DNA of 59,831 nt from IMG/VR virus record IMGVR_UViG_3300007345_000037, positions 1 to 59,831 of that record; one strand, 5' to 3'. The notes below the pieces were generated by a model. The model was not told the DNA's origin and did not search any database. It saw only the letters and a list, made by a program, of their open reading frames with translations. The DNA is from a virus. Shown here in pieces: positions 266 to 59,831 of this stretch. Numbering within the stretch: the stretch's first letter is position 1; every line of letters begins with the position of its first letter. Made by a program: the position numbers and the translations under genes.

Positions 266-673
266 ATGGGCAAGCGAAACAACAACCGATTGGCAGAAAG
301 GGTATGGTCATTCATGGTCAACCACAACGATGCCATGACCACATCAACAATCCACCAGCACTACTCAGCAGTGTATGGCAACGAGTCTATACCTAAGCAA
401 CAGACCTTGACCCAAGTCCTTCTCAACTCCCGTATGTTCCGACGGGTCGGATGGTACAACGAAGTCACCAAGGAAACCTACCCGTTCACCGGAAGCATCA
501 GTGCGCTAAAACAATGGAAGGGTGTTCCAAGCACCAACCTCGTTTGTGTCTTAGAGGCCCGTACAATGGACGAAATCACGGCACCCTACCTCGACCCCAC
601 CCGTTCCCCAATCCGACGCTTAGACCGTATGCCAAAGTTCGTTAGAGAGTATGTCAAGGAGGCTTTACAATGA
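266..673 (+). CDS. winged-helix-like small protein
   Basis: This 135-aa protein has no family I can name with confidence. Residues 8-75 have the layout of a winged helix: a first helix (RLAERVWSFM), a recognition-type helix around QTLTQVLLNS, and a strand/wing ending near TYPF. The C-terminus is basic. The same layout is seen in the products at 4558-4962 and 14062-14397. It is the first gene of a long plus-strand operon and overlaps the next gene by 4 bases (ATGA). A DNA-binding or transcription role is inference. Confidence 0.5.
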   Translation: MGKRNNNRLAERVWSFMVNHNDAMTTSTIHQHYSAVYGNESIPKQQTLTQVLLNSRMFRRVGWYNEVTKETYPFTGSISALKQWKGVPSTNLVCVLEARTMDEITAPYLDPTRSPIRRLDRMPKFVREYVKEALQ

Positions 674-4514: not shown

Positions 4515-4557
4515 CTGTTAGGGCAACATTAAATAAAACACTTCCGTGGGACAGGAC

Positions 4558-4962
4558 ATGAGCGCAACGAATCGTCGTGTACGACGGGCTATTCTCGAAA
4601 TACTTTGGGAAGGCGGACCAATGACGAAAGAAGATGTTGCCGTCGCTCTCGGTGAAAAGAAGGGAGTCAATCACATTCCTTCACCTCATTCCCTTTCCGC
4701 ACTGCTGTGCAAGTCCCATTCGGTGATTACCGTTGGCAAACGCAAGGTTGAGAATATCCTCGGCCATCGTTCATCTCACGCACTTTACGATTTGGACCGT
4801 GAAGTAGTATTATCGAAAGACGAAATCAAGTTCATCCGTGAACCTTCGACCATGACTCCATCGGAGCGCAGGCAAGCCATGAAATGTGTGGCTTGTGGTC
4901 GAACTCGCATCTTTCCTCCGAACTCCGAGGAATGTTTGCATTGTGGTCGAATATCCGTTTAG
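4558..4962 (+). CDS. winged-helix / zinc-ribbon protein, candidate transcription regulator
   Basis: This 134-aa protein has a winged-helix-like N-terminus (RRAILEILWEGGPMTKEDVAVA, then SLSALLCK) and a C-terminal zinc ribbon (CVAC at about 107-110, CLHC at about 126-129). wHTH plus Zn ribbon is a common architecture for archaeal and viral transcription regulators. Its stop codon TAG lies inside a GTTTAGTCG element belonging to the next promoter, so the gene end and the operator are physically fused. It is one of several candidates for the protein that reads TTTAGTCG. ATG 4558 is preferred over GTG 4546 on start codon only. Confidence 0.5.
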   Translation: MSATNRRVRRAILEILWEGGPMTKEDVAVALGEKKGVNHIPSPHSLSALLCKSHSVITVGKRKVENILGHRSSHALYDLDREVVLSKDEIKFIREPSTMTPSERRQAMKCVACGRTRIFPPNSEECLHCGRISV

Positions 4963-4988
4963 TCGGACCACCACAACCTTTATAAGCC
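4957..4988 (+). promoter_or_regulatory. promoter with TTTAGTCG operator
   Basis: GTTTAGTCG (4957-4965) is followed after 13 bases by TTTATAAG (within 4977-4988). Transcription would start near 5007, 13 bases before the ATG at 5020. The spacing of the operator to the TATA box is the same, within one base, as in the promoters at 53452, 54885, 57708 and 59802 and in the minus-strand one at 53826. The operator overlaps the stop codon of the upstream gene. Confidence 0.7.
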
Positions 4989-10294: not shown

Positions 10295-11878
10295 ATGTCG
10301 AATGTAGTCATGGGTGAAGAGGCGAAAGCCGCTTTCTTGGAGGCCATCAACCTTGTCGCTGATGCCGTTGAAGGTACGCTGGGACCGCAGGCGAGAACTG
10401 TTCTCGTCACGCATCCCGAACGACCACCAACGGTGTTGAACGACGGCGTGAAGATTGTTTCCTCCGTACAGTCCGAAAAGCCTGCTGTGCAAGCCGCAGT
10501 GCAACTGTTCCGACAGGCCGCACTTGAGGCTCAACAGGCTTCCGGTGACGGTACTACAACGGCAACACTACTTGCTCGTGCAATCTGCAACGCATACGCC
10601 GACCATCCCAACAAAGTCCGAGCCGCCCAAGAAATCGCTCAACTGACCGACGAAACCGTTGCATACATCGAACGACAAAGTGATGAGATTGATTTTGATG
10701 CACTCACTGACGATGATGATTGGGAAAAGTTAGAACAGCGGCTAAAGTTCGTGGCTTCTGTCGCCGCTAACAACGACGAATATCTTGGCGAACTCGTTGC
10801 TGAAATCTTCACGGAACTCGGCCCCGACGCTCTCGTCAATCTCAAGGTCGGCTCTCTTGACCATACGATTTGGTCGAAAGCCCTCGGAACAAGTGTTCCC
10901 ACAACATTCGTTTCTCCGATGTTCTGTAATACGAACAGGCGTACCGTCGAATACCACAACCCGTTGTTCCTTTTGACACAAACCGTGATTGAGGAATTTG
11001 AAGACTTGATGCCTGCGCTTGAGATTGCGGTTGAGAACAACCGACCGCTCATCGTTATATGTCAAGACATTAAGGGTGTTGCTCTATCGAACCTCATCGC
11101 CAATCATGTTGGTGGTGTTGTCAAGGCTTGTGCCATCAAGGTACCATACGCTGACCCTGTGACTTGGTTTGAAGACATTATAGCCCTTGTCGGTGGCAAG
11201 ATATTCTTCGACGCAGAAGGGCATACGGTTGCCGATGTTGTTGCCGGTAAAGGAATGCTCGGAACTGCTGACACAATTAGAATTAACGAAACAGAAACAG
11301 TTCTTATTGCTGGCTCTTCGGCTGTAAATACGCTGAACGACCACATCGCAGGTTTGCGAAAACAGGCGGAAGCGGCTGACCATTCTTTTGTAAAGGAAAA
11401 ACTACTCACTCGTATTGCTCGTTTGGATTCAAAGATTGCTAACATTCACATCGGAGGATTCAGCGAGGCTGAAATCCGTGAAACGAGGGAAAGGGTTGAC
11501 GATGCTGTCAACGCTACCCGACTCGCCATGAAGGGTGGTACCGTTCACGGTGCTGGCGTGACTCTCGCACGACGCACTTCCGTCACCGAGCGACCGGAAA
11601 GTCCACGCAACGAGCGGTGGGAGAAGGTTCTCCTTGAACCGGTTCGTGTGTTGACCAAGAACGCTGGTAGTGAGCAATCGCTCGCAGATATTAGGAAGTT
11701 ATTCCAACAAAGGCACTACTACAAGAACTTGCACACGGCGGAGTTCTACATCGAAACACAAGACACTGTTAATGTGTACGACGCTACTCTCGTGCTTGTC
11801 AACTCACTCAAAGCCGCCGCATCAATTGCTCGGCTCATGCTACTCACCGACCGAATCGTTTTGGTGGGCGAACAATAG
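10295..11878 (+). CDS. groEL: group I (GroEL-type) chaperonin
   Basis: 527 aa against 548 in E. coli GroEL. It is an ATP-driven ring that folds proteins, probably capsid or replication proteins. Visible motifs: TLGPQARTVL (28-37) and LNDGVKIV with D50; the P-loop-like GDGTTTATLL with D85; an apical-domain stretch (PLIVICQDIKG); and the late equatorial motif DDAVNATR, with the third catalytic Asp. These match group I rather than thermosome sequences. The usual GGG near 415 is GAG here, and the GGM tail is missing. No GroES gene is recognised, so a host or unrelated co-chaperonin would be needed. Confidence 0.9.
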   Translation: MSNVVMGEEAKAAFLEAINLVADAVEGTLGPQARTVLVTHPERPPTVLNDGVKIVSSVQSEKPAVQAAVQLFRQAALEAQQASGDGTTTATLLARAICNAYADHPNKVRAAQEIAQLTDETVAYIERQSDEIDFDALTDDDDWEKLEQRLKFVASVAANNDEYLGELVAEIFTELGPDALVNLKVGSLDHTIWSKALGTSVPTTFVSPMFCNTNRRTVEYHNPLFLLTQTVIEEFEDLMPALEIAVENNRPLIVICQDIKGVALSNLIANHVGGVVKACAIKVPYADPVTWFEDIIALVGGKIFFDAEGHTVADVVAGKGMLGTADTIRINETETVLIAGSSAVNTLNDHIAGLRKQAEAADHSFVKEKLLTRIARLDSKIANIHIGGFSEAEIRETRERVDDAVNATRLAMKGGTVHGAGVTLARRTSVTERPESPRNERWEKVLLEPVRVLTKNAGSEQSLADIRKLFQQRHYYKNLHTAEFYIETQDTVNVYDATLVLVNSLKAAASIARLMLLTDRIVLVGEQ

Positions 11879-15722: not shown

Positions 15723-16052
15723 ATGGCGGAATACCCCCTAACCGACGCTCTCAAACAAAATCTAATTCTCAATACCATTAGAATGATGGATGCCGATGAA
15801 AATGCCAATCCGAATTGCGAAACAGAATTTCAATTCGATTATGGCGGTCGAACAATTGCTGCTTCGGTTAAAATTACCGAAATACCAAAGGAAAAATTGT
15901 ATCGGAATCACGATTGGCTGTACAACGAGTATATCAATGAAGGCAAGACTCTCAAGGAAATAGCATCTATGTTCAACATTACTCCGATGAGTATTCATCA
16001 GTGGCTTGTCAAATTAGGCATCCCTTCAAGACCTCGTGGTCGCCGTCAATAA
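15723..16052 (+). CDS. helix-turn-helix DNA-binding protein
   Basis: 109 aa. The C-terminal half carries a resolvase/sigma-like HTH: WLYNEYINEGKTLKEIASMF followed by NITPMSIHQWLVKLGIP and a basic RPRGRRQ tail. The N-terminal half is acidic. It has its own leaderless promoter directly before the DNA polymerase promoter, which suits a regulator of the replication operon. It is a good candidate for a virus transcription factor; its target is not known. Confidence 0.65.
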   Translation: MAEYPLTDALKQNLILNTIRMMDADENANPNCETEFQFDYGGRTIAASVKITEIPKEKLYRNHDWLYNEYINEGKTLKEIASMFNITPMSIHQWLVKLGIPSRPRGRRQ

Positions 16053-19020: not shown

Positions 19021-19049
19021 CTTTAGTCGCCCATAACAACCTTTATATG
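19021..19049 (+). promoter_or_regulatory. leaderless promoter with TTTAGTCG operator
   Basis: CTTTAGTCG (19021-19029) is followed after 12 bases by TTTATATG. The TATA centre is about 26 bases from the ATG at 19071, so the nuclease mRNA should be leaderless. The operator spacing is within one or two bases of the other six TTTAGTCG promoters. Confidence 0.65.
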
Positions 19050-46701: not shown

Positions 46702-46998
46702 GTTAGGGGGAGATGTGGGATGATTTATGAAGGTAGCGATTTATTTTTGTTTATTGTTTCTTTTTTTACAAAAATAATTAAATCGAACGACATATATCGG
46801 TTTTGCTTAATTCTTTTATTGTTTCAAAGGCGTTTAAGAAAAAGAAGTAATAAGCAATATCAGTGGGGCATAAAACATCTATGAATAAATGAAAGAATAC
46901 TATGTTTGGTCTTTGAGTACATCGTTTTATTCTTTTTGTTGGTGCTAAATCAACAGAAAGATAAATGTTCATAAAGGGTTTCCTCTTGGAGTATATTG
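46702..46998. promoter_or_regulatory. AT-rich divergent promoter region
   Basis: This 297-bp gap separates the virion operon (minus) from the terminase operon (plus). A minus-strand TATA-like TTCATAAATC near 46720-46735 serves the portal gene. On the plus strand, GATAAATGTTCATAAAG lies near 46960-46975 and GGAG precedes ATG 46999. AT content is clearly higher than in genes. No TTTAGTCG element was found, so this late-type region is outside that regulon. Confidence 0.55.
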
Positions 46999-50246: not shown

Positions 50247-50685
50247 AGAAGGTTTTGAAAAATTTTTCTGCGAATTTTTGAGGGTACTAAGCAACGCTGT
50301 GTAGGCGGCGTGCGTCGATTTTTGGAGGCAAGACCGCCGCAGATGGACCCGCACCCAATCCAGCAGATGCCCATTCTTGATGCCATACATGGCCTGTACG
50401 GGCCGTTCGTGGGTGCTGGGCGGTATGGGTAGCACCGCACCCCCTTGCGTGCGCTGTAGGGGTGTCTACGGGCTTGTTTTCGATTTCAGCCCCAGCCGAG
50501 CAGGGCGGCACCTGCTGAACAGGCTCGCAGTACCCCGAAAATTGACATAAAAAAAAACATCCCGCTGGCCCACTCCACGACCGGCACAGGATGAGAACCG
50601 GTCGCTGTTGTTGTTTCGTTTGCTTGTCAATACCTCCGCAGTGTGTCGTTCGTCGTTCGTTCTTCGTTCAGTTCATCGGTCGCAT
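50247..50685. other. GC-rich intergenic region, possible terminator and tiny ORF
   Basis: After the terminase stop, runs of T (50261-50278) could terminate transcription. From 50300 the base composition becomes GC-rich, unlike the genes to the left. A short plus-strand frame, GTG 50310 to TAG 50399 (29-30 aa, ending FVGAGRYG), is open upstream and might be real. A stem of GGGTGC with GCACCC lies at 50409-50440. Nothing else is recognised. Confidence 0.35.
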
Positions 50686-51867
50686 TCAAGCCTTGAAGCG
50701 TCGCTCAAGAGCGATGCCCAAAAGGGTGACTTGCTCGCCATCCACTGCCACTTCAAAGGCACATGGGACAACATCGAAGTCCATCTTGCTCCACTTGCCA
50801 CCCTCAATTCGGGTGCTAAATCGGGATGCGTCGCCGTCGTTGGTCATGCAATCGGCCATGAGTTGGGCCGGTGTGATTTGGCCACGGTGAGCCATCACAA
50901 CACGGTTGAACAGGGCCTTCGTGATGCGGCAAGCCTTGAAGTGGACTCGGTGGCCGCCGTAGGTCTTGAGGCCAGCGTTCACCTTGTCCAAGACCGGTAG
51001 GTGCATGGTCACGCTGTTGTATCCAAGGTTGCGCTTCGGGGTACCGCAAGCAGGGCAGGCGTTGGCTCGGCTCACTTGCTGGTGTCCCCATGCCTTGCGA
51101 CAGTCGGAGCAGTACCGCTGGGCGGCGTGGCCGTTGTTGGTCCAATCAAGCACCGTTTCGGCGTTGATGGCAAGGTGTGCCTTTAGGCAGTCCACGCCAT
51201 CGCCTTGAAGGGCGTAGCGGTGGACGGTGGAGCCTTCAACACGGTTGCGAGTGTCGAGGGCAAGGTCACCCTTTCGCTTGTCATTCAGTTGCTTCAAGGT
51301 GTCCATTCCGTCACGGATGAGGGCCTTGCTGTCAACCGGCACATATCGCACCATATCGCCTTCAATGAGGCCGAAGGCTTGCATCATTTCGGGGGTGGCT
51401 TCCATCAAGTCGAGGTCGATGGCTTCGGCTGACTGACCGGACTTCTCAACGGCGTGGCGGTTGGCGTCACGGTATGCCTTGAGGCTGACCAAAGCGGCCA
51501 AGGCTCGGCGGACTGCTGGCTTCATCACGAGGTCGGTGGCGTCGAGTTCGCCAAGGTCGTAGGTTCGTGGTTGTTGGTTTGGTCGGATGGTCTTGACCGG
51601 TCGGAATCCAGCGGCCTTGATGGCCGCCATGCTTGGGTTCTTGATGCCCATCTCGTCGTTTAGCCCCTTGAGTACCGTGGCTGGTACGGTGTCCTTCGCT
51701 TGGTACTTGTTGACCCGTCGGGTCATGGCTCGGTTGGCGTTGCTGTGCTTTGACACAGCCTCCACCAATGTGACCATGATAACCTCATGGGGGTTTTCGG
51801 TTCCGTTGATGAACTGCTTCATCATGCTTGCTTCGTTTGCGTTTTGTGTGTTTTCGCTGTTTTGCAT
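50686..51867 (-). CDS. hypothetical zinc-ribbon protein, highly expressed context
   Basis: 393 aa from ATG 51867, preceded by GGAGGG. Helical N-terminal half (residues 20-190), a zinc ribbon near 260-285 (CSDCRKAW; CPACGTPKR), and a C-terminal alpha/beta part. Codon usage is GC-rich, unlike the replication module. It lies alone between two non-coding stretches. No family recognised; a nucleic-acid-binding role is plausible from the zinc ribbon only. Confidence 0.6.
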   Translation of the reverse strand: MQNSENTQNANEASMMKQFINGTENPHEVIMVTLVEAVSKHSNANRAMTRRVNKYQAKDTVPATVLKGLNDEMGIKNPSMAAIKAAGFRPVKTIRPNQQPRTYDLGELDATDLVMKPAVRRALAALVSLKAYRDANRHAVEKSGQSAEAIDLDLMEATPEMMQAFGLIEGDMVRYVPVDSKALIRDGMDTLKQLNDKRKGDLALDTRNRVEGSTVHRYALQGDGVDCLKAHLAINAETVLDWTNNGHAAQRYCSDCRKAWGHQQVSRANACPACGTPKRNLGYNSVTMHLPVLDKVNAGLKTYGGHRVHFKACRITKALFNRVVMAHRGQITPAQLMADCMTNDGDASRFSTRIEGGKWSKMDFDVVPCAFEVAVDGEQVTLLGIALERRFKA

Positions 51868-51904
51868 TTGGTTTCCCTCCTGTATTCCCACCGGAGTTCT
51901 CCCT

Positions 51905-51914
51905 CCTATATGAG
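51905..51914 (-). promoter_or_regulatory. TATA-like promoter of the 393-aa gene
   Basis: On the minus strand CTCATATAGG precedes the ATG at 51867 by about 40 bases; transcription would start near 51884. Two GGAGGG motifs lie in the leader. Confidence 0.4.
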
Positions 51915-52242
51915 CATTTGACGACTAATCCATGAAATTCGGCTGTTTTGGGGGTTTTTGGTTTGCTCCGGCTCGGCCTGCCACCGGCCCGACAATGTGC
52001 CTAAACGGGCTGGAATCGCACTTTTCATTCATGTTTTGGTTCATGTTTTGGGTTTGGGTCAACTAAACGATGCACTGCGAGGCGGTGGCCCCTGTTTCGC
52101 CAGCCTGTTTCGACCCGAACATGAATCATTCTTGTTCACTTTTCGGCTCGGAAGTGGTCCGACGGCGCACCGGAGCCGAGGCGGACAATGTTGGAATTTG
52201 AGCCAATTTCGCACTTTGAACCCGGATATGAGCGTTCGGCGT
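51915..52242. other. GC-rich intergenic region with repeat copy
   Basis: No convincing gene. At 52061-52080 the sequence AACTAAACGATGCACTGCGA is a degraded member of the CGACTAAAC..ACTGCG repeat family found at 54.0-54.5 kb. GGCTC/GAGCC inverted repeats lie at about 52144-52180. Otherwise no recognisable feature. Confidence 0.35.
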
Positions 52243-52258
52243 TTTAGGGTGCCCTAAA
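52243..52258. repeat. TTTAGGG-type palindrome (first copy)
   Basis: TTTAGGGTGCCCTAAA, a near-perfect 16-bp inverted repeat. It has the same outer bases (TTTAG..CTAAA) as the TTTAGTCG sites but a GGG core. It lies 53 bp before the phased cluster starting at 52296. Confidence 0.7.
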
Positions 52259-52295
52259 TCTCCGATTTGCCGAAATGCACATGAAGCGTTCATGT

Positions 52296-52370
52296 TTTAG
52301 GGCCGCCTAAACATTTTTAGGGCGACCTAAATTTTTTTAGGGCAACCTAAATCATTTAGTCGCGACTAAA
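52296..52370. repeat. phased operator cluster: three TTTAGGG palindromes plus TTTAGTCGCGACTAAA
   Basis: Four 16-bp inverted repeats at 52296-52311, 52316-52331, 52336-52351 and 52355-52370. Their centres are 20, 20 and 19 bp apart, near two helical turns, so bound proteins would lie on one DNA face. The first three have GGGC cores; the last is the perfect palindrome TTTAGTCGCGACTAAA, the element repeated through the next 2.5 kb. Confidence 0.8.
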
Positions 52371-52390
52371 TCCGAAAACGCAAATCAAAA

Positions 52391-52524
52391 TTTAGTCGGT
52401 ATCCAGGACATTAAAATAGAAAATTTAGTCGAAAATTATCGAAAATAAAAATAGACCAAATTTAGTCGGTATCGAATTAGTCGAAAAGAGGATTTTTAAT
52501 TAGTCGGCATCGAAATTTTAGTCG
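52391..52524. repeat. TTTAGTCG repeats, left block
   Basis: Six TTTAGTCG/ATTAGTCG copies at 52391, 52424, 52461, 52476, 52499 and 52517, all in the same orientation and spaced 15-37 bp apart, in AT-rich DNA. They lie downstream of the minus-strand operon at 52629-53153. Confidence 0.75.
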
Positions 52525-52580
52525 AGGGGTGGCCCCCGCCTGCAACACACGCAGACGAGGACCGGAGGGGTGAGCGTGAA

Positions 52581-52616
52581 GGGTGGTCCCAGCCCGTAGG
52601 CTGGGAATCGCCACCC
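52581..52616. terminator. extended GC-rich hairpin after a minus-strand operon
   Basis: CCCAGCC-CGTA-GGCTGGG (52588-52605) is a perfect 7-bp stem with a 4-base loop, extended outward by GGGTGG (52581-52586) and CCACCC (52611-52616). It lies 13 bases past the stop of the minus-strand gene at 52629-52820. It could terminate or stabilise that transcript; archaeal terminators normally need T-runs, which are weak here. Confidence 0.45.
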
Positions 52617-52628
52617 GTGGGGTGCTGG

Positions 52629-52820
52629 TCACAGCAGTGCTTGGCAGTGCGGGCAGACAGGTGTACGAGGTGCGCCGGTGTTGGCAAGGGTGGTGTATCG
52701 ACCTTGCTTTTCGGACCACACGCCCGCTTCACGGGCAAGGTCGGAAGGCGACCAAGCGGAGTGCTTGGCACCACACAGGGCGAGAGGTTGACCGGAGAGG
52801 CGAATGTGAAGGATAGCCAT
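52629..52820 (-). CDS. small zinc-ribbon-like protein
   Basis: 63 aa. LALCGAKHSAW near the N-terminus and CPHC at the end make a probable zinc site. Its ATG follows directly on the stop of the upstream gene (TGA ATG). It is part of a two-gene operon inside the repeat-rich region. No family recognised. Confidence 0.45.
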   Translation of the reverse strand: MAILHIRLSGQPLALCGAKHSAWSPSDLAREAGVWSEKQGRYTTLANTGAPRTPVCPHCQALL

Positions 52821-53153
52821 TCAAGCCACCGCCGGAATTTCGTGCATCACAATGTCGCTGTTTGGGCACATGATGATGAGGCGGTCGAGGGTTGCGTCGA
52901 TGAGGTAGCGAGGGACATAGGTCGGGACGGCGATGTCGGGTGTGGCGGTGTAGGAGGCGGCGGCGAGGGAGTAGCCATGCGAACCGAGCAGGGTTTCGAT
53001 GGTGTCGCTGAATTGGTTGAGTAGGTCGTCAACATTCGGCGAGTTGTAGTCAAAGCAGACCTCATGGTACATCTGTACCACGGTGTCGAGAACCGCAGGG
53101 TTCACGGGGTAGGTCGGCAGTCGGGCTTCGGGGGTTATGGTTTGTTGTGCCAT
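52821..53153 (-). CDS. hypothetical protein
   Basis: 110 aa, mostly helical (LDTVVQMYHEVCFDYNSP; VDDLLNQFSDTIETLLGS). A TATA-like CCTTTAAGG (minus strand, about 53175-53186) lies 26 bases from the ATG, suggesting a leaderless mRNA, with a TTTAGTCG copy 16 bp further upstream in reversed orientation. First gene of a two-gene operon flanked by repeats. No family recognised. Confidence 0.5.
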   Translation of the reverse strand: MAQQTITPEARLPTYPVNPAVLDTVVQMYHEVCFDYNSPNVDDLLNQFSDTIETLLGSHGYSLAAASYTATPDIAVPTYVPRYLIDATLDRLIIMCPNSDIVMHEIPAVA

Positions 53154-53201
53154 GTTTGTACCATAGTCACTCTCCCCTTAAAGGCATCGGTGATAGGCGG
53201 T

Positions 53202-53460
53202 TTTAGTCGGCAAAGTCGGCCACAGGTGGCCCCTACTTGGGGGCCGCAGGCCCAATAATCGACTAAACGGGGGAGTAATAATTTATCTTTAGTCGCGACT
53301 AATTCAAGTGCTTTGTTATTTTTTAGTCGTTATCGGAACGATTTTTTTATTTAGTCGAAATTTAAAAAACGATAAAATTTAGTCGAAAATCAAAGACAAT
53401 AAAATTTAGTCGAAATCAAAAATTATCGAAATTTTAGTCGGCCAAAATCATGTTTAGTCG
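53202..53460. repeat. TTTAGTCG repeats, middle block
   Basis: Copies at 53202, 53260 (reversed), 53288 (palindromic), 53322, 53350, 53378, 53405, 53433 and 53453. Between 53322 and 53453 they recur every 20-28 bp in one orientation, often followed by AAA or AATTATCGAAA. A GC-rich hairpin (GGCCCC..GGGGCC) lies at about 53227-53245. No gene is seen in this stretch (53154-53559). Confidence 0.8.
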
Positions 53461-53482
53461 CTAAGAAAGAAAAGTATATAAG
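53452..53482 (+). promoter_or_regulatory. TTTAGTCG promoter directed into the 53.6-kb gene (antisense)
   Basis: GTTTAGTCG (53452-53460) followed at the standard spacing by TATATAAG (53475-53482). The predicted start is near 53503. No plus-strand gene follows; the transcript would run antisense through the minus-strand gene at 53560-53763. Two alternative GC hairpins (CCCCGC/GCGGGG and CCGAA/TTCGG) overlap at 53496-53520. Confidence 0.5.
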
Positions 53483-53559
53483 GGGTAGCCCAGCCCCCCG
53501 CCGAAGCGGGGTTCGGGCGGCTCCGGCTCGTGGCCGTATTTAGTCGGTGAGTTAGTCGC

Positions 53560-53763
53560 TCAAACAATCATTGTCCACTTGAACACGATGAAATTGTTTT
53601 CCTTCCTGTTTGTGAACACGCAGACAGTGAAGGTTTCAAATGACTCTTCAAGGTCTTCATCGTACACGGTTTCCAACTTGCCGCCGGGATAATACATTGG
53701 CAGGTCGTTCCATTGTTCTTCGTTCTCGTGTGTTAGTGCAGTGTTTATTATCATGTAGTCCAT
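53560..53763 (-). CDS. small hypothetical protein
   Basis: 67 aa, GGAGG 9 bases upstream. It has an acidic middle (ETVYDEDLEESFETFTV) and a hydrophobic end (NFIVFKWTMIV). Its promoter carries the TTTAGTCG element and an antisense promoter of the same class faces it. That arrangement is seen around small regulators or antitoxin-like genes, but the function is unknown. Confidence 0.45.
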   Translation of the reverse strand: MDYMIINTALTHENEEQWNDLPMYYPGGKLETVYDEDLEESFETFTVCVFTNRKENNFIVFKWTMIV

Positions 53764-53792
53764 GTTTTTGCCTCCATCTGTTGCTCGCCTCG

Positions 53793-53826
53793 CTACTATT
53801 TAAGTTTATGGGAGGGGCGACTAAAC
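53793..53826 (-). promoter_or_regulatory. TTTAGTCG promoter of the 67-aa gene
   Basis: Read on the minus strand: GTTTAGTCG (53826-53818), 13-14 bases, then CTTAAATAGTAG (53804-53793). Predicted transcription start is about 53773, ten bases before the ATG at 53763. The TATA region is nearly identical to those at 54905 and 57728. Confidence 0.7.
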
Positions 53827-54884
53827 GCCGATTTTATCATTATACCTTAGTCGTGACTAACTCGCAGGGGATTTGGGGAATTAAGGAACCCATCTAGTCG
53901 GGACTAATTAGTCGCGACTAATTTATTACTCCCCCATCGGCGCATTCGGGAAGCGGCACCCCACTCCTATGAGTATGTGGGGGTATATAACCTTTGCTTT
54001 GAGGCGAATTTTTAGTCGCGACTAATTTTATGGGGCGCAGTTGTTTGTTTAGTCGTTATTTGGCTTCGTCGGCTTCGAGTAGGGGGTAGTGGCGACCCTG
54101 TTCACTTTAACCGACTAAACGCTGTACTGCGGACTGATACTTTAGTCGAAATTTAAAAATTAGTCGCGACTAAAAAAATGGGGTGCAGTGATGCGTTTAG
54201 TCGAAATTTAGCATCGGGATGCCTCGGCCTCTATCCCGAAGGGTACCACATTGAAATACCGACTAAACAGTGTACTGCGAGGCAGAAATTTAGTCGGGAC
54301 TAAACAGTGCTACGGGGTGCGTTTAGTTGCGACTAGAAAAATGCCTTTCAGTGGTGCGTTTAGTCGAATTAAACCGCCATAAGACTCCACCGCCCTACTC
54401 AGCCATCGAAATTCTAAAGCACGACTAAACGGTGTACTGCGTGATAGAAAATTAGTCGCTACTAAAGGCATCACTGCGTTTTGGGGGGCGACTAAAGATT
54501 ATTGACTACAAAAAAACGAATAACGACTAACGAGCCAAGTCAAATCCCGGATATTGACCACCGATAATTTAGTCGAAAGTGCAAAAGTTCAAAAATGCGA
54601 TGAAATTTTAGTCGTTATCGAAATCCTGAAAAACCGTTATTGTAGTCAATAATTTAGTCACGACTAAGTATCAGGGGCACCGCCCGCTCCGCCGGTTTCT
54701 GTGGGGTTTATTTAGTCGAAATTATTTCCGGCAAAAATTGAACGACAATTTAGTCGAAAAAAATAACAGCCGAAAAATCAGCAAATCCGACCGTAGCAGT
54801 TAGTCGAAAATCGAAAAAACCAGCCGATTTAGTCGCCCGTCCCAATCCGGCCCTCTTTAATAATACACTACGCACAAGATAAGC
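53827..54884. repeat. TTTAGTCG array, right block, with CGACTAAAC..ACTGCG repeats
   Basis: This gene-free kilobase holds about 25 copies in both orientations. Palindromic pairs lie at 53846, 53907, 54011, 54159, 54289, 54322, 54451 and 54653. A longer relative reads CGACTAAAC, two bases, TG, pyrimidine, ACTGCG: copies at 54112-54131, 54260-54280 and 54422-54441, with inverted or partial copies near 54032-54055, 54180-54203, 54342-54366 and 54461-54478. A lone TATA (GGTATATAACC, 53974-53984) points rightward with no gene after it. Operator array, origin or segregation site are the options. Confidence 0.8.
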
Positions 54885-54918
54885 GTTTAGTCGGGGTACC
54901 GGAAACTTTAAATAGTAG
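54885..54918 (+). promoter_or_regulatory. TTTAGTCG promoter of the right accessory operon
   Basis: GTTTAGTCG (54885-54893), 13 bases, then TTTAAATAGTAG. Predicted start near 54938, about 20 bases before the ATG at 54959. A second TATA (TATATAAG, 54931-54938) lies closer to the gene. The operon runs to 57697. Confidence 0.7.
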
Positions 54919-54958
54919 TACATCTATGGGTATATAAGACCCGAAGGAGATACCCCAA

Positions 54959-55111
54959 ATGAGCCGAACCAACCCAACTGAAACCCTAAGCGTGAAAGGC
55001 GTCGCATGTCAAAAATGCGGTTGCCGTAAATTCCGACCGATAGGGCATTCCCTTGAGAATGTCCGATGTGTCCACTGTGGCACATTCACTTTCCTGTGGG
55101 GTGCTGTTTGA
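54959..55111 (+). CDS. zinc-ribbon microprotein
   Basis: 50 aa, with GGAGATA upstream. CQKCGC (17-22) and CVHC (37-40) form a zinc ribbon; the end is aromatic/hydrophobic (TFLWGAV). First gene of the operon under the TTTAGTCG promoter. A regulator role is possible but unproven. Confidence 0.55.
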   Translation: MSRTNPTETLSVKGVACQKCGCRKFRPIGHSLENVRCVHCGTFTFLWGAV

Positions 55112-55266
55112 TGGTTGACCTCACCGTTGACGATTGTATCGCTATCGCCGCCGCATTGGAAATGTACGCAGGCAAAATCATGCGAACCCACCCTCACCAA
55201 TCCGCTGAAAACCTCGACCTTGTGCGAAAAATCTGGTGGGCGATTGATATGGAGGCTGAATTGTGA
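55111..55266 (+). CDS. small helical hypothetical protein
   Basis: 51 aa. Its ATG overlaps the upstream stop by one base. It is almost entirely helical (DDCIAIAAALEMYAGKIM; LDLVRKIWWAIDMEAEL). The stop overlaps the next start by 4 bases. No family recognised. Confidence 0.5.
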   Translation: MVDLTVDDCIAIAAALEMYAGKIMRTHPHQSAENLDLVRKIWWAIDMEAEL

Positions 55267-55478
55267 CCGCCTTCCCCCACACCATTGAGTTCCGTGGCTA
55301 CGATTACGACTTCCATAAGATTTACGGATGCCCCGACCAAGCCGCTCTTGAAGCCTCGCTGGTCCGACAGTACGGCATCATCGGCCACGCCCACTATCAC
55401 CGCCGGTCCAAGATTCGGGCCTTCGTCAAAAAATTCCCTCAAGGCTTCGTCGTGTACACCCGTGAGGTGAGTTGGTGA
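55263..55478 (+). CDS. hypothetical protein
   Basis: 71 aa, GTG start overlapping the upstream gene. Contains His-rich GHAHYHRRSKIRAF and aromatic residues. It overlaps the next gene by 4 bases. Function unknown. Confidence 0.45.
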   Translation: MTAFPHTIEFRGYDYDFHKIYGCPDQAALEASLVRQYGIIGHAHYHRRSKIRAFVKKFPQGFVVYTREVSW

Positions 55479-55606
55479 GCATCGACAAATGGCCCCACCG
55501 ACCCTGCCAGCACTGCGGCAAATCCGCTGATGAGATTCGGCAGATTCCCACCATGCACATCGTCCTCGCCTGCAAGAATTGCCTTGAATCATGGAGGACT
55601 CAATGA
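55475..55606 (+). CDS. zinc-ribbon microprotein
   Basis: 43 aa with a GTG start. CQHC (11-14) and CKNC (33-36) form a zinc ribbon. The stop overlaps the start of the large downstream gene. Function unknown. Confidence 0.5.
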   Translation: MSIDKWPHRPCQHCGKSADEIRQIPTMHIVLACKNCLESWRTQ

Positions 55607-57707: not shown

Positions 57708-57741
57708 GTTTAGTCGGGCCACCAGAAACTTTAAATAGTAG
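57708..57741 (+). promoter_or_regulatory. TTTAGTCG promoter of the ArdA operon
   Basis: GTTTAGTCG (57708-57716), 13 bases, then TTTAAATAGTAG. Predicted start is near 57761, about 65 bases before the ATG at 57827. The A-rich leader (57768-57826) holds no other gene. Confidence 0.7.
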
Positions 57742-57826: not shown

Positions 57827-58207
57827 ATGACAAGAAAAATACAGATACCGGAAAACATTGAAGACGAATTTTGGGAGGTCACAGACCCCACCCAATTTGT
57901 GAGAACATACAACGCCCTGCGACGACGACGCAACGATACATTTGACTACCCGAATCGGGCAAGCAACAGCGTACAAATCTCGCTTGGTCACGGCCACTCA
58001 TCCGACGGCTATTGGTTTGACATGACGAACAAGCAGACCGAAGAATTGCTCACCAAACACGCCAACGCAAAACCGAACTCCTTCGCAAATTGCGTTTCAA
58101 ATCCCGCCGTTCGATTCAAGATTTCCCGATGGGACATTTCCGTTTGGCCGTACCACAAAGCCGATTTCACGCTCAACAAGGACAACAATTGGGGGCGTGA
58201 CGAATGA
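57827..58207 (+). CDS. hypothetical protein before ardA
   Basis: 126 aa from ATG 57827 (GGAAGGA upstream; ATG 57812 is less likely). It is acidic/aromatic with strand-rich ends (SNSVQISLGHGHSSDGYWF; FKISRWDISVWPYH). It overlaps the ArdA-like gene by 4 bases. It may act with ArdA; no family recognised. Confidence 0.5.
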   Translation: MTRKIQIPENIEDEFWEVTDPTQFVRTYNALRRRRNDTFDYPNRASNSVQISLGHGHSSDGYWFDMTNKQTEELLTKHANAKPNSFANCVSNPAVRFKISRWDISVWPYHKADFTLNKDNNWGRDE

Positions 58208-58737
58208 GCGAGCCAAAAGTGTACATGGCCTGTTTGGGATGCTACAACGAAGGAAGGCTTCACGGCTCATGGATGGATGCCGACCAATTGGAGGAACGGT
58301 GGGACTACGCCGAAGAACACGACCGCCAAGACAGGGCGGGACACTTCAACAAATGCTCCCGACCTTTCCACGACGAATGGGCGATTCACGATTATGACGG
58401 CGTTCCCAACATGGGCGAGCATCCCGACATTGAGTTCCTCATCGAAGTCATGCGTTGCATCGAAGAACACGGCGACGCATTCTTCCGATGGTTTGAACAC
58501 GACTCATGGAATATGTCGCATCTCAAAGGTGAACTTGAAGACCATTTCCGAGAACAATACTACGGAAAATATGACTCACCCAAAGCGTTTGCCGAAGAGT
58601 ACGCCATCGAAGCCGGTTGGCTCTCAAACAACAACAACAACCCACTGTTCCGCTATGTGGACTTTGAGTGGTATTGGAACGCCGACCTGCGCCACTCTTT
58701 CACCTACTCCAACGGCCATGTGTGGTGTTGCGAATGA
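58204..58737 (+). CDS. ardA: ArdA-like antirestriction protein
   Basis: 177 aa, near the usual 165-170 aa. ArdA mimics bent B-form DNA and blocks type I restriction enzymes. Family-like features: the opening YMACLGCYNEGRLHGSWMDA (about 7-26), EWAIHDYDGVP (about 58-68), IEEHGDAFFRWF, and YYGKYDSPKAFAEEY near the end. It is strongly acidic, as a DNA mimic must be. Together with the virus methyltransferase it would protect DNA on entry. The TTTAGTCG promoter suggests early or controlled expression. Confidence 0.8.
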   Translation: MSEPKVYMACLGCYNEGRLHGSWMDADQLEERWDYAEEHDRQDRAGHFNKCSRPFHDEWAIHDYDGVPNMGEHPDIEFLIEVMRCIEEHGDAFFRWFEHDSWNMSHLKGELEDHFREQYYGKYDSPKAFAEEYAIEAGWLSNNNNNPLFRYVDFEWYWNADLRHSFTYSNGHVWCCE

Positions 58738-59801: not shown

Positions 59802-59831
59802 GTTTAGTCGCCCTACCAGAAGACTTAAATA
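59802..59831 (+). promoter_or_regulatory. TTTAGTCG promoter cut by the window end
   Basis: GTTTAGTCG (59802-59810), then ACTTAAATA at the same spacing as the other promoters. The gene it drives lies beyond the window. Confidence 0.65.

Follow-up and report, generated by a model that had tools for sequence, protein, structure and literature searches.

A conserved operator array with a structured core and a lineage-specific code in tailed viruses that probably infect marine archaea

The window, by which we mean the whole stretch of 59,831 nt analysed here, is the IMG/VR virus record IMGVR_UViG_3300007345_000037, whose ends are bridged by near-identical contigs in a circular map of ~65.6 kb. The genome has opposed modules and its own PolB, portal and terminase (TerL), and further encodes a clamp-loader-like AAA protein, a GroEL-like chaperonin and ArdA; the structural operon runs leftward. 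Its HTH-type proteins include one that combines a wHTH with a zinc ribbon (4,546-4,962) and an HTH protein (15,723-16,052), and a HARE-HTH-like protein is represented among the lineages by homologues of L102:13617-13970. The operator array described below is flanked on its left by TerL and P401, a fast-evolving zinc-ribbon protein encoded between TerL and the array (50,686-51,891, minus strand), and on its right by a rightward run of small genes, the first of which encodes a 49-aa zinc-ribbon protein (54,962-55,111, plus strand). Because the top full-length matches of PolB in a phage collection are haloviruses (22-23% identity) and the promoters carry archaeal-type TATA boxes, a marine archaeon is the likely host, of the magrovirus kind, and the virus family is probably a marine, archaea-infecting one. 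The map of ~65.6 kb compares with 90-110 kb in the published description of the order Magrovirales (PMC12999244). A TerL search of genome contigs returned no host or provirus. The viral chaperonin (10,295-11,878), for which GroEL (group I) models give the highest scores, diverges fast, with about 33-86% identity among related viruses. The ArdA antirestriction homologue lies in the right arm (58,204-58,737); viruses of the GTTAGACG lineage include one with a related protein (L102:7688-8323).

The array (52,355-54,893) comprises 47 TTAGTCG half-sites, 34 of them TTTAGTCG, and five TTAGTCGCGACTAA palindromes. The window holds 39 copies of TTTAGTCG, 34 of which fall in the array; the mean after shuffling is 1.83, and 39 was reached in none of 100 shuffles. 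The 7-mer TTAGTCG occurs 53 times in the window, with 47 occurrences in 52,296-54,900 (34 on the plus strand, 13 on the minus), which agrees with the dense array of about 45 sites reported in an earlier note made from the sequence alone. That note had the array spanning 52,296-54,884, where it does lie, and it reaches slightly further, to the promoter site at 54,886. The sites form three intergenic clusters (52,355-52,524, 53,202-53,556 and 53,818-54,893), and all of them are outside two small minus-strand ORFs (52,821-53,153 and 53,560-53,763), so the array is indeed, as claimed, largely between genes. As to the description of the sites as both single and palindromic, the 14-bp form TTAGTCGCGACTAA is present in five exact copies, with imperfect dyads besides, but the full 16-bp palindrome TTTAGTCGCGACTAAA occurs exactly only once, at 52,355. 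Spacings run from under 10 to over 100 bp and the 8-bp sites stand in both orientations, which upholds the view that this is not CRISPR. In frequency matrices made for each virus, a strong 8-bp half-site is followed downstream by weaker letters of an inverted partner, a flank signal that comes partly from full palindromes. An Rfam scan of 50,300-55,600 gave no match, nor did a comparison of the array DNA with phage and plasmid collections. Just to the left of the array (52,243-52,352) are four palindromes of type TTTAGGG(C/T)NNCCTAAA, possibly a variant operator. Near its right end, TTGACTACAA is found in inverted orientation at 54,502 and 54,640, and several other lineages show similar elements (TTGACTACAAAAA...TTTTGACTACAA).

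The same operator marks promoters, as had been observed earlier. On the plus strand, TTTAGTCG stands 13 nt before TTTAAATA both at the promoter of the zinc-ribbon gene next to the array (54,886-54,914) and at 57,709-57,737; 13 nt before CTTAAATA at the window end (59,803-59,831); 13 nt before TTTATAAG at 4,958-4,986; and 12 nt before TTTATATG at 19,022-19,049. All five lie 12-14 nt upstream of TATA boxes. By direct reading of the sequence, a minus-strand operator promoter (TTTAGTCG...CTTAAATA, 53,795-53,825) also precedes the 67-aa ORF at 53,560-53,763. Upstream of P401, an operator of the ATTAGTCG type accompanies a TATA-like CATATAGG (51,896-51,929, minus strand). This P401 operator was seen only in the window's own lineage, and constant operator control of P401 was rejected.

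Approximately 60 related contigs were collected by searches with TerL, the flanking genes and the protein encoded at 1,422-2,756. Wherever a relative's contig extends far enough, the array begins 1.3-2.2 kb downstream of TerL. Viruses with the array carry 20-60 copies of an 8-letter site in one gene-poor stretch, and the letters differ by lineage: TTTAGTCG in lineage A, to which we add CTTAGTCG (B), GTTAGTCG (C), GTTAGACG (D), GTTAGCCG (E), AATAGTCG (F), ATTAGTCG (H) and RATAGTCG (R). The code of more distant relatives is TTTGTAGT; in these viruses (TerL near 59%) the array keeps the same position. The array is missing from several viruses whose TerL identity is near 57%. Counting exact 8-mers over 26 contigs with arrays produces an almost diagonal table, in which neighbouring codes overlap somewhat. 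Promoter sites outside the arrays follow the code of their own contig in 4/4 and 3/3 cases in A, 3/3 and 3/4 in B, 2/3 in C, 3/4 in F, 9/10 in H and 4/4 in R. Each of two D contigs has its own code in 2/4 promoter sites, the remainder being variants at a position that is likewise degenerate in the D array. The clearest instance is the zinc-ribbon gene promoter, which is orthologous in six lineages and bears the lineage's own code in each (TTTAGTCG, CTTAGTCG, GTTAGTCG, GTTAGACG, GTTAGCCG and ATTAGTCG). Array and promoters therefore covary, and the expectation that close relatives keep both was borne out in all those long enough to tell. Within lineages, operator columns are 94-100% conserved, compared with 70-93% for other array columns. 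Sample 3300030105 contributed two contigs, G003 and G007, that may both belong to a single virus close to the window. Of these, G003 has the RATAGTCG code despite proteins up to 92% identical to those of the window, which suggests that its change of code was recent.

The distance from operator to TATA falls into two classes, about 10-14 or 21-23 nt, one helical turn apart. It is 12-14 nt in lineages A, B, C and R and 21-23 nt in D, E and F; both occur in H, where promoters have two operators 11 bp apart. In promoters of the H-type contigs L113 and L114, for instance at L114:2558-2595, such a ATTAGTCG pair links the short- and long-spacing classes. Archaeal activators usually sit just upstream of BRE/TATA, and the fixed placing of the operator upstream of TATA is that of archaeal activator sites. 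Solely because of this position of the promoter sites, activation is preferred over repression, and the regulator is probably an activator.

The earlier note had seen no uniform spacer, and none is constant over the whole array; what escaped it is a fixed sub-architecture, a recurring 37-56-37 bp pattern in the distances between site centres. The resulting dyad modules measure ~145 bp, with outward 37-bp arms around a centre of 55-57 bp. Three are present in the window: module 1 at 54,011-54,156 (37-56-37 bp; inner sites 54,048-54,055 on the plus strand and 54,112-54,119 on the minus), module 2 at 54,159-54,304 (inner sites 54,196-54,203, plus, and 54,260-54,267, minus), which contains ACTGCGAGGC at 54,274, and module 3 at 54,322-54,466 (37-55-37 bp; inner sites 54,359-54,366, plus, and 54,422-54,429, minus). 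Most other lineages have one to three; in a strict module search of G013 and G018 none passed. When sites were moved by up to 30 bp, a mean of 0.000-0.005 modules per array was obtained against the 2-3 observed, and for every one of the six genomes tested the observed number was reached in 0 of 2,000 trials; both the definition of a module and the compared pairs were picked after the pattern had been seen, and this jitter test gauges the strength of a noticed pattern, not a prediction. Aligned arms read CGACTAA-N-C...ACTGcgagcc...TTAGTCG, and the majority of the 48 arms contain ACTG. The inner ACTG(CGAG) element and the geometry are kept across lineages whose operators differ. A simple operator array leaves both unexplained.

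A second operator type, ATTCTTT/AAAGAAT, is found in module-like elements at two promoters elsewhere, one upstream of the operon of a winged-helix (wHTH) protein (40-235) and the other at the divergent promoter between the portal operon (minus) and the exonuclease-TerL operon (plus; 46,760-46,960). These have a dyad layout like that of the array modules, including an ACTG-type element, with CATAGG/CCTATG inner repeats. Their ATTCTTT/AAAGAAT letters are identical in lineages with differing array codes. Since elements of this kind, with a lineage-invariant ATTCTTT, sit at two promoters, a role in transcription is favoured for the module type, and the presence of two regulators is suggested.

To our knowledge, next to nothing has been learned about how uncultured tailed viruses of marine archaea regulate their genes. 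The locus described here is a genuine and conserved operator array that has a structured core and a code specific to the lineage. Our preferred reading, held with reasonable though far from complete confidence, is that the array consists of the predicted sites of a virus-encoded regulator and forms a cis-regulatory hub coupled to early promoters. The array, its conserved position, its covariation with the promoters, the spacing classes, the module geometry and the stronger conservation of sites than of flanks are observed; we infer protein binding, the viral origin of the binder, activation as its sign and the function as a hub. A sequence-specific viral DNA-binding protein that recognises half-sites of 8 bp, paired in a 16-bp dyad, would occupy the array, and the same protein would act at the rightward promoters of the early/replication region, contacting one site, or two sites 11 bp apart, just upstream of BRE/TATA. 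With dozens of array sites filled, among them up to three dyad modules of fixed geometry whose ACTG element may recruit a second factor, a large nucleoprotein complex would form and control the flanking transcription units; titration of the regulator by the array would be unavoidable. As the specificity of the regulator shifted between lineages, array and promoters would shift along with it, giving orthogonal systems.

The most serious alternative is a replication origin, or a combined origin/enhancer with a logic like that of the Epstein-Barr virus (EBV) oriP, in which a viral protein on the modules starts or regulates replication and also serves the promoters. The repeated modules of strict geometry, the dozens of sites and the conserved genome position all fit such a role, as do the additional conserved non-coding elements, of which TTGACTACAA near the right end is an example. 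There is also a precedent in EBV oriP, where one viral protein, EBNA1, uses a large cluster of sites (the family of repeats) together with a dyad symmetry element, and its dual roles in transcription and replication are a possible model for the array (PMC2654434). The two systems share no homology, the present one belonging to a tailed virus and not a herpesvirus, and the array differs in its up to three modules, many irregular sites and single promoter-proximal sites. An origin had also been among the options offered earlier, with GC skew as a check. At four-fold sites the skew tracks gene orientation and has no array-specific switch, so that base skew, a weak test here, lends the idea no support. 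The module-like elements at two promoters elsewhere also speak against an origin, and models of MCM and Cdc6_C had no match in seven related records (possibly incomplete), although PolB and clamp-loader-like genes do exist. We regard an origin as possible but unlikely. Held just as tentatively is a broader proposal in which enhancer and replication origin share one locus, a conserved scaffold (37-56-37, ACTG) being addressed by an interchangeable 8-bp code; some 50 sites switched at once could then define mutually orthogonal groups, regulatory or replicon, with exclusion between viruses infecting the same cell as a possible driving force.

If the array were a decoy, its sites would merely soak up the regulator and set the threshold of the early promoters. 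The excess of about 45 array sites over the handful at promoters is what a decoy would need, but neither the 37-56-37 geometry nor the ACTG element nor a fixed place in the genome is, and titration as the sole function is improbable. Slightly less credit goes to stoperators, proposed earlier as the nearest precedent, by which repressor molecules on many sites halt elongation and confer superinfection immunity. That comparison was apt in one respect. Cluster A mycobacteriophages (L5, Bxb1, Trixie) likewise have tens of short sites per genome and a lineage-specific code that is common to promoter operators and other sites and diverges between relatives (PMC6550527, PMC9283540), just as the code here changes by lineage in step with the promoters. 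In other respects it failed. The 20-30 cluster A stoperators are asymmetric 13-bp sites that lie scattered over the genome, follow the direction of transcription and are bound by an immunity repressor (PMC6550527), whereas the array sites are clustered, intergenic, bidirectional and set in dyad modules of fixed geometry, with the promoter sites upstream of TATA. The phage integrase family PF00589 had no match in seven related records (possibly incomplete). If the array served some viral protein as a packaging (pac) site or a centromere-like partition site, its constant place 1.3-2.2 kb downstream of TerL would make sense, and pac would be compatible with headful packaging of the ~65.6 kb circular map. 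Still, the same operator stands at many promoters away from TerL, and the ParA-type ATPase of partition systems (AAA_31, PF13614) had no match in seven related records (possibly incomplete), which makes this reading very improbable. Least probable of all is a host transcription factor, with viruses differing since their hosts differ: seven or more codes in one virus clade would require equally many host factor specificities, and matches to the promoter pattern in genome contigs are scattered over many phyla, with no Poseidoniales among the matches listed.

Two archaeal systems also invite comparison. HF1-like haloviruses, again archaeal tailed viruses, have repeated AT-rich intergenic elements (class I/II repeats), for which promoter activity and strategic positions relative to transcripts have been reported; by description these are long, promoter-holding and at separate places (PMC7230728), whereas in the present viruses a single array concentrates an 8-bp operator whose letters vary from one lineage to another. 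F55 of a Sulfolobus spindle-shaped virus is an archaeal virus regulator that also uses short repeated sites at several early promoters, in its case two tandem-repeat sites per promoter that overlap TSS/BRE (repression), with no array (PMC5569661). The combination seen here is absent from these nearest precedents (stoperators, oriP, halovirus intergenic repeats and F55), and a literature search of limited range found no matching description.

Orthologous promoters and arrays that bear different codes in related viruses amount to a natural experiment. The regulator becomes findable by matching proteins to codes, and the joint change in specificity of a regulator and some fifty sites becomes a directly testable question. 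Should the codes set exclusion groups, these would be an archaeal parallel to the immunity groups of mycobacteriophages, in viruses without an evident integrase. One candidate binder of the operator is P401, which adjoins nearly all arrays and has invariant zinc-ribbon cysteines. In several comparisons between viruses that differ in code it ranks last or next to last in conservation among the shared genes, a divergence confounded with the overall distance between viruses. In a counter-example, G046 and G027 have the same code and yet P401 proteins only 28% identical. A P401 model (pLDDT 74) gave no fold match, and neither a family search nor a comparison with phages produced a match to its sequence. 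A second candidate regulator is the winged-helix protein encoded at 266-673 (plus strand; overlapping the gene at 670-1,425 by four bases), which is conserved in array viruses. Its model (pLDDT 90) has weakly wHTH-like fold matches, none with E below 0.001. As reader of the code it is not favoured, because its recognition region differs between viruses that share a code and is alike in viruses whose codes differ. Further HTH-like proteins are encoded besides these two.
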